64,000 nt of DNA, taken from contig NZ_JAQKGU010000001.1 in NCBI RefSeq assembly GCF_028532725.1, positions 124,001 through 188,000 of the forward strand, written 5' to 3'. The translations under genes and the position numbers were made by a program. Source of the stretch: Desulfovibrio sp. Fe33 (GTDB lineage: Bacteria; Desulfobacterota; Desulfovibrionia; Desulfovibrionales; Desulfovibrionaceae). Shown in pieces: positions 42,926 to 59,793 of the stretch (positions within the stretch are counted from its first letter, which is position 1; each line of letters starts with the position of its first letter). The notes under the pieces are model-generated. The model was not told the origin of the DNA and made no database searches. It saw nothing but the letters and a program-made list of their open reading frames with translations.

Positions 42926-43083
42926 GAAGACGACAATCAGGCGTTGAAAGCCGCTTTGCGGCGATAGTCGGGTGATTTCGCCTCCGGCGGGCAAGGGTTC
43001 GCACCCTTGCATCCCCGGTATGCGCCTCCGGCGCGGTTTTTTTCCCGCTATGCGGCTTCCTGCGGCAAAAGCGGGGAGTTAAA
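42926..43083 (+). repeat. Family I multi-hairpin repeat, copy A
   Basis: Starts 30 bp after the marR stop. It contains CCGCTTTGCGG, GCAAGGGTTCGCACCCTTGC (8-bp stem) and GCGCCTCCGGCGC hairpins, then GGTTTTTTT, so it can terminate marR transcription. Nearly identical to copy D. Confidence 0.85.
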
Positions 43084-45732: not shown

Positions 45733-46092
45733 CTAGACACCGGACAGGCGGTTGGCGAGTTCGGTGCCGTCCTGGGCGGCGGGGTTGGCGGGCAGGGGCA
45801 TGAGGACGCCGTATCCTTCGGCCGCCTCGTGGAAATCCTCTTCGCTCATGGTGGTGATGACGGCGGTGAGGGTCATGGCCGAGACCATGAGGATTTCGCG
45901 GACCAGGTCGAGGGGCTTGTGGTCGGGCAGGTTCTCGTCGATGACCACGAGCGCCGGGGACTTGGCGGACACCCATTCCAGGGCAGCGGCTCCGGAGGAA
46001 GCCACGTCCACGTCCTGTCCGGTCTTGTCGGCCAGGGCCTTGGAAAAGGCAGCCAGCTCGTCCGGGCGGGTGGTTGCCAGCACAATGGACAT
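45733..46092 (-). CDS. Degenerate receiver-like protein
   Basis: A 119-residue protein with the length and beta-alpha layout of a response-regulator receiver. LVVIDENLPD places an Asp at residue 52 where phosphorylation would occur, and AVITTMSEEDF matches the T-loop. However, the N-terminal acidic pair is missing (VLATTRPDE) and the usual conserved Lys region reads MPLPANP. It may therefore be a pseudo-receiver used as a protein-interaction module. It starts one base after the stop of the NifX-like gene and ends the five-gene ORP-type operon. Confidence 0.65.
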   Translation of the reverse strand: MSIVLATTRPDELAAFSKALADKTGQDVDVASSGAAALEWVSAKSPALVVIDENLPDHKPLDLVREILMVSAMTLTAVITTMSEEDFHEAAEGYGVLMPLPANPAAQDGTELANRLSGV

Positions 46093-46093
46093 G

Positions 46094-46468
46094 TTAGTGT
46101 CCGCCGCCGCAGGTCTGCTCCACGGTGAAGACCGGCAGGGAGTCATGCAGGAACGCCTCGATGGCGGCGTGCACGGTGGGTGCGCCGGAGCCGTGGTAGA
46201 CCTGGATGCCGACCTGGTTGAAGCCCATGAGCGGGCGCATACCCATGCCGCCGGAGATGAGGGCCTGGACCTTGTTGTCGGCCAGGTAGTTCACCGGGGC
46301 CATGCAGCCGCCCTGAACGTGGGGGCAGCTCGGGACCACGGAGACCTCTTTCACTGCGCCGTCTTCGATGTCGACCAGGGTGTACATGGCGCAATGGCCG
46401 AAGTGGGCATCGATGGAGGCGTCCATGCCGCCGGGAGCGGCGGACGGAATTGCAATACGCGTATTCAC
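46094..46468 (-). CDS. NifX/NifB-family iron-molybdenum cluster-binding protein (ORP-like)
   Basis: A 124-residue protein of the dinitrogenase Fe-Mo cofactor-binding family, which includes the Desulfovibrio orange protein that carries a Mo-Cu sulfide cluster. Typical blocks are IAIPSA, DASIDAHFGHCAMYTLVDI, VVPSCPHVQGGC and ISGGMGMRPLMGFNQVGIQVY. The cysteines in HFGHC, SCPH and GGC are possible metal ligands. A near-equal NifX domain (124 residues) forms the end of the fusion protein at 48224-49168, so the operon has two copies. Flanking P-loop ATPases with ferredoxin domains resemble the ORP complex genes. Confidence 0.82.
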   Translation of the reverse strand: MNTRIAIPSAAPGGMDASIDAHFGHCAMYTLVDIEDGAVKEVSVVPSCPHVQGGCMAPVNYLADNKVQALISGGMGMRPLMGFNQVGIQVYHGSGAPTVHAAIEAFLHDSLPVFTVEQTCGGGH

Positions 46469-46491: not shown

Positions 46492-47370
46492 TTAATTGCA
46501 TGTATCCAAAAGGGCCAGGACCCCGGCCCAGGACGTCTTGAGGGTTTCGGAAAGCTCCGGGTTGTCGGTCTCGGTGAGGACCTTTCGTTCGAGCATGGCG
46601 TCGACCACGGCGCGGTCGTGCGGGAACCGTCCGGCCAGGGTATAGCCCTTGCCGACGCTCCACTTTTCGATTTCTTCGGTCATGTCCGGGTTGATGTCCC
46701 ATTTGTTGACCAGCACGGCGACCTTGGTACGGAAGCGGTCGCAGAGTTCGGCCACGCGCTTGAGGTCGTGCAGTCCGGACGGGGTCGGCTCGGTGACGAT
46801 GACGGCCAGGTCGGTTCCGGCCATGGAGCTTATCACCGGGCAGCCGATGCCGGGAGTGCCGTCGCAGAGCACGAGGTTGAGTCCCTGTTCTTCGGCGATG
46901 GCCCTGGCCTGCTGCTTGAGCAGGGTGACCAGGCGGCCGGAGTTTTCCTCGCCGGGGAAGAGCTGGGCGTGGACCATGGGGCCGAACCGGGTGTCGGAGA
47001 CGTACCATTGTCCGCAGTGCTTTTCCGGGAAGTCGATGGCCTTTTCCGGGCAGAGAGCGACACAGACCTTGCATCCTTCGCAGGCCAGGGAATCGACCTG
47101 GTAAACGTCGCCCGCTTCGCGCACGGCGTCGAACCGGCACAGCTCGGCGCACTGGCCGCAGCCGATGCAGCGATCCGGGTCGATAACCGCCTCGTGGCCG
47201 GAGTTGAAGGCTTTTTCCGACTTGAGCTGCGGGTCGAGGAGCAGATGCAGGTCCGGGGCGTCCACGTCGAGATCGCAGAGAATGGCGTTGTCCGCGAGAT
47301 GGGCGAACGCCCCGGCGATGGAGGTCTTGCCCGCGCCGCCCTTGCCGCTGATGACTACTATTTCGCGCAT
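46492..47370 (-). CDS. MinD/Mrp-type P-loop ATPase with inserted 2[4Fe-4S] domain (1)
   Basis: A 292-residue ATPase with the deviant Walker A GKGGAGKTS at residues 9-17 and LCDLDVDAPDLHLLL. A ferredoxin-like insertion has two clusters: CIGCGQCAELC near residue 68 and CEGCKVCVALCP near 95. The ATPase half resumes with LVLCDGTPGIGCPVISS and VTEPTPSGLHDLKR. Paired ATPases of this type accompany the orange protein in Desulfovibrio and are tied to the ORP complex, reported to affect septum placement. It overlaps the 5' neighbour by 13 bases. Confidence 0.88.
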   Translation of the reverse strand: MREIVVISGKGGAGKTSIAGAFAHLADNAILCDLDVDAPDLHLLLDPQLKSEKAFNSGHEAVIDPDRCIGCGQCAELCRFDAVREAGDVYQVDSLACEGCKVCVALCPEKAIDFPEKHCGQWYVSDTRFGPMVHAQLFPGEENSGRLVTLLKQQARAIAEEQGLNLVLCDGTPGIGCPVISSMAGTDLAVIVTEPTPSGLHDLKRVAELCDRFRTKVAVLVNKWDINPDMTEEIEKWSVGKGYTLAGRFPHDRAVVDAMLERKVLTETDNPELSETLKTSWAGVLALLDTCN

Positions 47371-48227
47371 GATTCGCCTCCCTTTGCCGCCGCGGCGCGC
47401 ATGTGTCCGCGCAGATCGACGAAGGTTTGCTCCAGTTCGGTGAGCGCGTCCGCGACGACCTCGCCTCTGGAGTAGGCTTCGGCGATGTCGCGGGAGTAGG
47501 GGATTTCGGCCCAGACCGGGATGTTGTTCTCGCGGCAGAAGTCGCGCACGGCGGTATCGCCGAGGTCGGACCTGTTGATGACCGCGCCCATGGGCTTGTT
47601 CAGCGGGGTGAAGGCTTCCCAGGCGAGCTTGAAGTCATGGAATCCGAAGGGGGTGGGCTCGGTGACGAGGACGATGCAGTCCGCGTCGGTCACGGCCGCG
47701 ATGGCCGGGCAGCTCACGCCGGGAGGGGCGTCGATGATGATGTCGCCCCGTTTTTTCAGTTCGGGGAAGAGGTGGCGGATCTGGCGCATGAGCGGCGGGC
47801 TCATGGCCTCGCCAACGCGCAGCCGCCCCATGACGAAGTCGTGCCGCCCGGCGGTGCCCTTGCAGATTTCGCCCAGTTCGCGTCGGCCCGGGAAGAGCGC
47901 GCCCTCGGGGCAGACGGCCAGGCAGCCGCCGCATCCGTGGCACATTTCCGGGAAGACGAGCAGGGTGTCGGCCATGACCGTGATGGCCTTGAACTGGCAC
48001 AACTCGGCGCAGGCCCGGCATCGGGTGCACTTGGACTCGTCGGCCTCGGGAACCTCGATCCATGCCTTGGCGACGTCGGTCAGCTCGGGCTTGAGGAAGA
48101 GGTGGAGGTTGGGTTCCTCCACATCGAGGTCCACGAGGGTGGCGGGTCCGTCCCAAAGGGCGGCCAGGGATGAAGACACAGTGGTCTTGCCCGTGCCGCC
48201 CTTGCCGCTTGCGACGGCGTAGATCAC
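47358..48227 (-). CDS. MinD/Mrp-type P-loop ATPase with inserted 2[4Fe-4S] domain (2)
   Basis: A 289-residue paralogue of the downstream ATPase. The Walker A is GKGGTGKTT at residues 8-16 and the switch region is LVDLDVEEPNLHLFL. The ferredoxin insertion has CTRCRACAELCQ and CHGCGGCLAVCP, then the DIIIDAPPGVSCPAIAA and VTEPTPFGFHDFKL blocks. The two ATPases probably form a heterodimer that couples ATP turnover to cluster or electron transfer. It starts inside the stop of the fusion gene (ATGA), so translation is coupled. Confidence 0.88.
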   Translation of the reverse strand: MIYAVASGKGGTGKTTVSSSLAALWDGPATLVDLDVEEPNLHLFLKPELTDVAKAWIEVPEADESKCTRCRACAELCQFKAITVMADTLLVFPEMCHGCGGCLAVCPEGALFPGRRELGEICKGTAGRHDFVMGRLRVGEAMSPPLMRQIRHLFPELKKRGDIIIDAPPGVSCPAIAAVTDADCIVLVTEPTPFGFHDFKLAWEAFTPLNKPMGAVINRSDLGDTAVRDFCRENNIPVWAEIPYSRDIAEAYSRGEVVADALTELEQTFVDLRGHMRAAAAKGGESCAK

Positions 48228-49168
48228 TTGTTGCCTCCGGCCTGCGCATTGGGGGCGTCGGCCATGTTGACCTGGCCCGCCATGTATTTCTCGACCGCTT
48301 CGCGAACGGTCATGTTGTCCACGTCCTGGCCGATGCTGATGCCCGCGGCCTGAAGGGCGGTGAACGCCTTGGGGCCGACGTAGCCGGTCAGCAGCACCTT
48401 GGCTCCGGCGTTGGCCACGTTTTCGGCGGCCTGGATGCCCGCGCCCTGGGCCATGGCCTGGGAACCGCCGTTGTCCACGTACTGGACCACGGTCATGGTT
48501 TTCGGGTCCACGATGGCGAAGCCGCCCGCCCGTCCGAAACGGGGATCAACGCGGTCGTCCAGGGTGGGGCCTTCGGTGGTTACTGCTATTCTGCTCATGG
48601 TTGCGTCCTTGATTTGCTGTTGTGTTCCGGAACCTGCGGCGGCTCCGCGGCCCTGGCCCATTCCTGCGCCTTGGCTCATTCCTGCGCCCTGACCGCCCAT
48701 TCCGCGGCCCTGGCCCATACCCATTCCGCGACCCATTCCACGGCCGCGGCCGCCCATGCACCGTCCGCCGCCGCCTGCGCCGCGCGGTCCGGTTCCGTCC
48801 ATTCCTGGCATACTGTCATCTCCAAGTGTTTGGGACGATTCGCCCCGTGACTTTTTGGGGCATTCCCAGGCGTCACCGGCAAGGGTGTAGTGGCCGCCAT
48901 CGATACGGATGGCGTGCCCCTCGGCCAGCGCCGTGGCAACAATGTGCCGCGCCGAGCCGAGAACCCTGCCGAAAGTGGCCCTGGATACGCCCATGGCCTG
49001 TGCGCCCTCCTCCTGGGTAAGCCCCTGCGCGTCGGCCAGCCGAAGCGCTTCCAGCTCTTCCAGGGTCAGGGTCGCGGTCTGCAACTCGTGCATGGGGATG
49101 CCCTGCGGCTTGTAATGCGTCGCACCGGGTTCCTGCTGCACGGTCCGCCTGATCTTTCGTCTTCCCAT
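48224..49168 (-). CDS. DUF134 - Gly/Met-rich linker - NifX fusion protein
   Basis: One uninterrupted 314-codon frame with three parts. Residues 1-100 are DUF134, a putative HTH DNA-binding domain (MGRRKIRRTVQ, LTQEEGAQAMGVSRATFGRVL). Residues 120-190 are a DUF5320-like Gly/Met/Arg/Gln-rich segment (MPGMDGTGPRGAGGGG). Residues 191-314 are a NifX-like domain (MSRIAVTTEG, DDRVDPRFGRAGGFAIV). ATGs at both inner borders have Shine-Dalgarno-like sequences: GGAG 8 bases before 48811 and AAGGA 7 bases before 48598. Shorter products from the same frame are therefore possible. It is the first gene of the ORP-type operon, followed by the two ATPases. Confidence 0.85.
   Translation of the reverse strand: MGRRKIRRTVQQEPGATHYKPQGIPMHELQTATLTLEELEALRLADAQGLTQEEGAQAMGVSRATFGRVLGSARHIVATALAEGHAIRIDGGHYTLAGDAWECPKKSRGESSQTLGDDSMPGMDGTGPRGAGGGGRCMGGRGRGMGRGMGMGQGRGMGGQGAGMSQGAGMGQGRGAAAGSGTQQQIKDATMSRIAVTTEGPTLDDRVDPRFGRAGGFAIVDPKTMTVVQYVDNGGSQAMAQGAGIQAAENVANAGAKVLLTGYVGPKAFTALQAAGISIGQDVDNMTVREAVEKYMAGQVNMADAPNAQAGGNK
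48598..48604 (-). promoter_or_regulatory. Internal ribosome-site candidate before the NifX domain
   Basis: On the minus strand AAGGA lies 7 bases upstream of an in-frame ATG at 48596-48598 (MSRIAVTTEG), which begins a 124-residue NifX-like domain matching the length of the neighbouring NifX protein. Confidence 0.4.
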
Positions 49169-49201: not shown

Positions 49202-49229
49202 AAGATACGCTCGGATGTTGAGGAGTCAA
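49202..49229 (-). promoter_or_regulatory. Sigma-70-type promoter of the ORP-type operon
   Basis: On the minus strand TTGACT (49224-49229) and TATCTT (49202-49207) are spaced by 16 bases, 34 bases upstream of the DUF134-fusion start. A GCATATGC palindrome lies just upstream (about 49241-49248). I saw no sigma-54 pattern here. Confidence 0.5.
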
Positions 49230-49404
49230 GAGCAAAAATGAGCATATGCCCAAAAAAATATTCGGCGGCAGCGAACGGGGAAGGGAAGGGGGGAGGCTGG
49301 GCGGAGTGCGGGTAGAGGTAAGCGGCGGCCCGAGTTGCCATTATCAGGCCTGGGCCGGGCGTTCGCATGGACAAGCGGTTCGAGCGGGTGTATTCACCTG
49401 GGCC

Positions 49405-50572: not shown

Positions 50573-50719
50573 CACTCGCGGCGGCCCACCACAGAACGAA
50601 ACGCCGCGCCGAAGGCGCATATATGGGATGCAAGGGTGCGAGCCCTTGCCCGCCGGAGGCGAAATCATCCGATCATCGCCGCGAAGCGGCTTCCAACGCC
50701 TAATTCTGTCTTCAGGAAA
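50573..50719 (-). repeat. Family I multi-hairpin repeat, copy B
   Basis: Reverse-orientation copy sharing GGGATGCAAGGGTGCGAGCC and the CGGAGGCGAAATCATCC region with copies A, C and D. It retains the TCTTCAGG end that matches copy A's GAAGAC end. Copy C follows 182 bp away in the same orientation. Confidence 0.85.
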
Positions 50720-50754: not shown

Positions 50755-50877
50755 CACTCGCGGCGGACCACCACAGAACGAAACGCCGCGCCGAAGGCGC
50801 ATACATGGGATGCAAGGGTGCGAGCCCTTGCCCGCCGGAGGCGAAATTACCCGATCATCGCCGCGAAGCGGCTTCCA
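50755..50877 (-). repeat. Family I multi-hairpin repeat, copy C
   Basis: Second tandem reverse copy, nearly identical to copy B over about 120 bp but with a different outer end. Both point away from the minus-strand winged-helix gene at 51026-51196, i.e. lie 3' of it in its sense. Confidence 0.85.
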
Positions 50878-59635: not shown

Positions 59636-59793
59636 GAAGACGAAAGTCAGGCGTTGAAAGCCGCTTTGCTGCGATAGCCGGGTGATTTCGCCTCCGGCGG
59701 GCAAGGGCTCGCACCCTTGCATCCCATATATGCGCCTTCGGCGCGGTTTTTTTCCCTCTTGGGGGCGGCCTGCCGTGAAAGCGGGGAGGTAAA
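59636..59793 (+). repeat. Family I multi-hairpin repeat, copy D
   Basis: Nearly identical to copy A over about 150 bp: hairpins CCGCTTTGCTGC (degenerate), GCAAGGGCTCGCACCCTTGC and GCGCCTTCGGCGC, followed by GGTTTTTTT. It lies 8 bp 3' of the solute-binding protein gene in sense. Confidence 0.88.

Follow-up and report, generated by a model that had tools for sequence, protein, structure and literature searches.

The 64,000-nucleotide stretch of Desulfovibrio sp. Fe33 analysed here (contig NZ_JAQKGU010000001.1, positions 124,001 to 188,000; hereafter the window) contains a single frame of 314 codons that joins a DUF134 domain, a Gly/Met/Arg-rich linker and an orange protein (ORP) domain. The gene most likely makes a long regulator-like protein and a short ORP, and nested products are, with a probability of roughly 0.82, the best explanation of the fused frame. 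At the sequence level this reading is supported by the conservation of the fusion, of its inner starts and of their Shine–Dalgarno (SD) sequences, by open mRNA around these starts, and by the structure of the Desulfovibrio gigas ORP, which is identical in sequence to the C-terminal part of such a frame. The original prediction, made from the letters of the window, had placed the frame and both inner ATG codons, with their GGAG and AAGGA, correctly to the base.

48224–49168, minus strand: fused frame DUF134–Gly/Met/Arg-rich linker–ORP domain; 314 codons, ATG start, 314 residues, 32.1 kDa
48884–49165, minus strand: DUF134 domain (PF02001; residues 2–95), a helix-turn-helix resembling sigma-70 region 4
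48820–48823, minus strand: SD GGAG of the first inner start, 8 nt before the ATG at 48811
48599–48811, minus strand: linker, residues 120–190 (MPGMDG...), opening with the first inner ATG; predicted disordered, isoelectric point 11.9
48606–48610, minus strand: SD AAGGA of the second inner start, 7 nt before the ATG at 48598
48227–48598, minus strand: ORP domain and short product of 124 residues that begins at the second inner ATG (MSRIAV); PF02579, match to Protein Data Bank (PDB) entry 2wfb

Translation from the first ATG would yield the DUF134–linker–ORP protein, and translation from the conserved inner starts would yield ORP alone and, in the window's genus, linker–ORP too. The first inner ATG (residue 120, coordinate 48811) opens a product of 195 residues and 19.3 kDa, the second (residue 191, coordinate 48598) one of 124 residues and 12.7 kDa; the latter has, as predicted, the length of the neighbouring NifX-like protein (46094–46468, 124 residues). 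The short ORP may serve as a metal-sulfide carrier and partner of two neighbouring Fe–S ATPases, and the long form would be a DNA-binding version that most likely acts at TGARCATATGYTCA sites to repress its own promoter, the cluster supply being read by its ORP domain.

The N-terminal part belongs to DUF134 (72.8 bits over residues 2–95, Pfam cut-off 27); its matches to sigma region 4 are weak, and DNA binding is predicted here from the helix-turn-helix similarity and a conserved palindrome. The C-terminal part belongs to Nitro_FeMo-Co (PF02579; 63.9 bits over residues 204–296, Pfam cut-off 26.3), and residues 190–307 match PDB entry 2wfb, the apo form of the crystallised D. gigas orange protein (148.3 bits); the ORP fold was recovered by Foldseek (E 5.7e-18 and TM-score, a template modelling measure, of 0.93 by target length). 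With 75 of 117 aligned residues identical to that protein, the domain is better called ORP than NifX, the label it first carried. Of the three domains originally proposed, these two stand; the 71-residue middle segment, first labelled DUF5320-like, matched no Pfam family at E ≤ 10. In the AlphaFold model (32-row alignment; mean predicted local distance difference test score 70.8, predicted template modelling score 0.40) both ends are folded, including the DUF134 region, residues 101–190 are of low confidence, and the first strand of the ORP domain begins at residue 193, two residues past the inner Met.

Inner start codons and their conservation

Among the 25 in-frame ATG/GTG codons of the window's gene, the mRNA is least structured at residue 1, the gene's own start, followed by residues 191 and 120. 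This openness at the inner starts is remarkable, and their SD strength is unremarkable. SD strength was rejected as a stand-alone argument, many coding stretches equalling or exceeding the inner-start scores; since it is ordinary in one sequence, the relatives decide the question.

The query protein was matched to some degree in all 36 genomes of the genus. In an alignment of 21 linker-type fused rows, some near-identical (19 remain after the removal of two), the upper inner start (MPGMDG) is ATG in every row. Four codons upstream, Gly is present in 20 rows and always encoded by GGA (GGA makes up 292 of the 1,154 Gly codons of linker-type genes); L066, the one other row, reads GAGGAG instead. 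By codon uniformity this Gly column ranks third of 195; for the second SD, the columns of Lys and Asp come only 41st and 63rd. The second inner start is ATG or GTG in 19 of 21 rows, each Val there being encoded by GTG, and the two rows with ATT (L004 and L058) also lack the SD.

Across the wider family, 144 fused frames were reduced at 97% identity to 115, comprising 96 of subfamily A (19 with the linker and 77 compact), 18 of subfamily B, which is divergent, and a single alphaproteobacterial one from a metagenome-assembled genome; the set was drawn from search hits, and its proportions of fused to separate genes are not a census. With an SD called at −4.5 kcal or lower, the ORP border of subfamily A has a start codon together with an SD in 91 of 96 genes (84 ATG, 7 GTG), neither in five, and one alone in none. 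The mark of a gene within a gene, a conserved inner start codon with an SD, is therefore present as far as the alignments go. The same threshold is passed by 565 of 1,620 other in-frame ATG/GTG codons of the fused genes; at −7 kcal, border starts pass in 66 of 91 cases versus 124 of 1,620. The alphaproteobacterial fusion also has an SD (AAGGAA) and an ATG.

In subfamily B both elements are found in 6 of 18 genes, a start codon without an SD in six (five of them GTG) and neither in six. Within it, L143, L145, L163 and L205 differ from L146, L207, L208 and L212 in the inner ATG with SD, and such mixed members offer a natural comparison for the role of the short product. As a control we took MrpORP, another ORP-linked fusion, for which 149 genomes were searched and 30 loci lay above the family cut-off: ATG or GTG is near the border in 24 of the 30, and an SD is present too in only five, three of them from one genus.

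The inner starts also appear to be selected beyond the protein sequence. Each site was recoded synonymously 1,000 times and its SD energy compared with the mean, in 19 non-redundant linker-type loci (two without the second start) and 27 compact loci including the alphaproteobacterial one. The native SD energy was stronger than the recoding mean at 17/17 linker-type ORP starts, 19/19 MPGMDG starts and 27/27 compact starts, with controls at 175/407 and 196/448. The SD core is not tied to one codon phase: it occupies the three phases in 69, 18 and 3 rows (one row is unassigned), and the residues encoded there differ. Third-position GC content around the inner starts is 0.44 in the linker type (n = 17), 0.63 in the compact type (n = 74) and 0.31 at MPGMDG (n = 17), and 0.75 at 609 other in-frame ATG codons; the corresponding mRNA folding energies are −2.95, −4.39 and −4.72 kcal versus −11.2 kcal. 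DUF134 starts (n = 34), at −4.27 kcal, resemble the inner starts.

Inner-start conservation across relatives thus goes, on these alignments, well beyond chance. The original prediction had named as its own disproof a fusion kept in relatives without conserved inner starts; the comparison was run and found the starts conserved, which strongly supports its nested-product reading. The genome search that it proposed returned widespread fusions, and separate genes in some relatives.

The DUF134–ORP fusion is found in the genus, in many genera of the family, in another family of the order and in two further families of the phylum, the compact form, without the Gly/Met linker, being the one found elsewhere in family, order and phylum. 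In a quick tree of 108 rows, which includes 12 separate loci (a fuller list of separate genes has 21 rows, duplicates included), the rows of the linker type and those with separate genes cluster in a single group of 31 (100 in the Shimodaira–Hasegawa-like approximate likelihood ratio test, SH-aLRT), with Pseudodesulfovibrio and Halodesulfovibrio among the named contigs. The tree needs three changes between fused and separate states and three for the loss of the start. One locus, L007, has a single TAA between DUF134 and a linker–ORP frame that bears an MPGMNG start. Because of this distribution and the tree the fusion is judged old, and the suggestion that it was recently fused was rejected.

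Alternative accounts of the fused gene

Several points weigh against nested products. The second inner start of the window has a weak SD (−4.6 kcal), which puts it 10th by SD energy among 22 in-frame ATG/GTG/TTG codons, and in only 11 of 47 fused genes is the border start the strongest by this measure; the −4.5 kcal threshold was itself picked after the window's value was known. The pair of start codon and SD is missing in 5 of 96 genes of subfamily A and 12 of 18 of subfamily B, so the need for the short product is not universal. In some relatives the genes are separate. The single-locus p-values of the recoding test are modest (medians 0.15, 0.15 and 0.26), so that its force lies in consistency, and the statistics ignore kinship.

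If only the long protein were made, the inner Met and SD-like codons would be incidental to the protein sequence or relics from genes that were once separate. The ordinary rank of the SD strength, the third or so of other in-frame ATG/GTG codons that reach the same threshold, and the possibility that K-D/E ahead of Met is an amino-acid preference all agree with this account, which we nevertheless consider improbable: the recoding excess is seen at all 63 sites tested, the SD is kept while codon register and residues change, start and SD are lost together in the five exceptions of subfamily A, the mRNA is open, and the fusion is too widespread for relics to last. A protease cut in the disordered linker could also release a short ORP, residues 101–190 being predicted disordered and the linker–ORP junctions exposed; this would not account for the conservation of start codons and SDs at the border, nor for the weakly structured mRNA there, and we rate it slightly lower still.

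Somewhat less improbable, if still unlikely, is that only the short products matter and that DUF134 is translated merely for translational coupling, with no role in DNA binding. The separate-gene relatives fit this account: their next SD coincides with the DUF134 stop or follows it closely, in the manner of coupled genes. Against it, the promoter palindrome is conserved, and DUF134 residues are strongly conserved, some of them invariant in the 32-row alignment, with linkers of varying length staying in frame; the last two observations speak for the long product. The original prediction had set a true fusion and separate products against each other, a false choice, as the evidence favours both. 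Nested products remain the preferred reading, and we infer that in the window species both are made, that the long form binds the operator and that it senses clusters.

Promoter, predicted operator and neighbouring genes

49238–49253, no strand assigned: palindrome ATGAGCATATGCCCAA, predicted operator; 2 mismatches to ATGAGCATATGCTCAT
49202–49229, minus strand: sigma70-like promoter TTGACT-16-TATCTT, from sequence and upstream alignment
47358–48227, minus strand: MinD/ParA-type ATPase with 4Fe–4S motifs; the GTG that opens it overlaps the fusion's TGA stop
46492–47370, minus strand: second MinD/ParA-type ATPase with 4Fe–4S motifs
46094–46468, minus strand: stand-alone NifX-like protein, 124 residues; PF02579, 70.5 bits

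The palindrome ATGAGCATATGCCCAA is the sole match to ATGAGCATATGCTCAT within the window (0.11 expected) and lies upstream of the sigma70-like promoter, with a degenerate second copy over the −10 element in the alignment of upstream regions. A CATATG-centred palindrome stands upstream of DUF134 in 24 of the 26 genus loci of the group of 31, a count that omits L069, a compact fusion; in L003 and L063 the palindrome lies over the −10 element instead. Among the 115 non-redundant fused genes, 12 have the strict palindrome upstream and 20 a CATATG-centred one, only three of these compact or of subfamily B, and the strict pattern was found at the starts of none of the 115. Most compact fusions lack the palindrome, and the predicted operator is best seen as a trait of the window's genus clade and not of all fusions. 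A search of its own genome for a wider regulon of the palindrome found, besides its own site, one place with two mismatches.

The conserved promoter palindrome suggests autoregulation, for which repression by the long form would be the natural reading, and the fusion may couple cluster status to DNA binding. More speculatively, internal translation could set the proportion in which one gene supplies a cluster carrier and the sensor-regulator belonging to it. The long form would take up a Mo–Cu (or related) sulfide cluster only when the short ORP pool has been supplied, and would then repress the operon at TGARCATATGYTCA; we regard this supply-and-demand circuit as possible but doubtful.

A receiver-domain protein is encoded at 45733–46146 (PF00072, 33.1 bits, cut-off 30.2), in overlap with the end of the NifX-like gene; judged by eye, the D. 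gigas NifX-like gene is followed by a sequence of similar appearance. An interspersed repeat with the core TGCAAGGGTGCGAGCCCTTGCCCGCCGG occurs four times in the window (42978–43011, 50629–50662, 50811–50844 and 59688–59721) and at 107 places in its own genome with up to two mismatches, often in tandem about 180–230 bases apart.

The D. gigas orange protein and other known systems

In a genome identified as that of D. gigas (G015) the fusion (L072, L223) ends in the 2wfb ORP sequence, identical from Met to end at 117/117 residues, and CAGGAG CAAAAT precedes its inner ATG. The computed mass of the short D. gigas ORP is 11.8 kDa, and the native protein is reportedly of about 11.8 kDa; with the identity from the inner Met, this makes it very probable that the short product of D. 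gigas has been available to researchers for two decades. The frame of the crystallised ORP is thus itself fused to DUF134, contains an inner SD and ATG, and is followed, as in the window, by two Fe–S ATPases and a NifX-like gene. The D. gigas fusion differs in being compact, without the Gly/Met linker and the second inner start. Two frames lie just upstream of it (L223:4691–5298), one DUF134-like and stand-alone, the other rich in Gly, Gln and Arg; they are a possible source of the linker in the window's genus.

Excerpts of the literature describe the D. gigas ORP as isolated from the organism and assign it a Mo–Cu sulfide cluster, which the window ORP may share. A 2019 review calls the function of the D. 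gigas protein unknown, and the text available from the D. gigas genome paper (PMC4287179) yielded no mention of 'orange protein', ORP or DUF134. Recognising its gene as the inner half of a DNA-binding fusion places the orange protein in a regulatory context, and provides a predicted operator and a way to test it directly. Annotation on a one-gene-one-protein basis would miss such a deeply conserved inner start.

An inner in-frame start is a known kind of arrangement. Among genes within genes, Rpn RpnL/RpnS (PMC10327210), Cas8b/Cas11b (PMC11899642) and the CTP1L endolysin (PMC4777826) likewise use one to make a C-terminal domain as a separate product; in the excerpts available, none couples a DNA-binding fusion with a metal-cluster carrier, and for the window gene the conservation is shown at the sequence level. 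A deeply conserved pair of DNA-binding protein and metal carrier, with orange protein as the short product, was not found in the excerpts of open-licence PubMed Central (PMC) literature consulted.

Other relatives share parts of the architecture. MrpORP (NF041136; PMC6345978), as described in the text available, is also a fusion linked to ORP proteins that ends in a PF02579-type domain; its N-terminus is a P-loop NTPase rather than DUF134, few of its loci (5/30) have the inner start with SD, and the window protein scores 25 bits against its model, far from the curated cut-off of 450 bits. The thioferrate protein IssA (PMC5524996, in part) carries on its NifX-family domain an unstructured tail that is cationic and rich in Gly, as the 195-residue product would; the IssA tail is C-terminal and aromatic-rich, that of the window N-terminal and Met/Arg/Gln-rich. 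The orp operons of D. vulgaris (PMC3897727 and PMC6345978, in part) pair the Fe–S ATPases Orp3 and Orp4, which the window's two ATPases resemble, with a NifX-family protein. There, Orp8 is described as a one-domain protein and the operons as controlled by sigma54 and DVU2106, whereas the window has a sigma70-like promoter with a palindrome and carries a predicted regulator domain inside the ORP gene itself.
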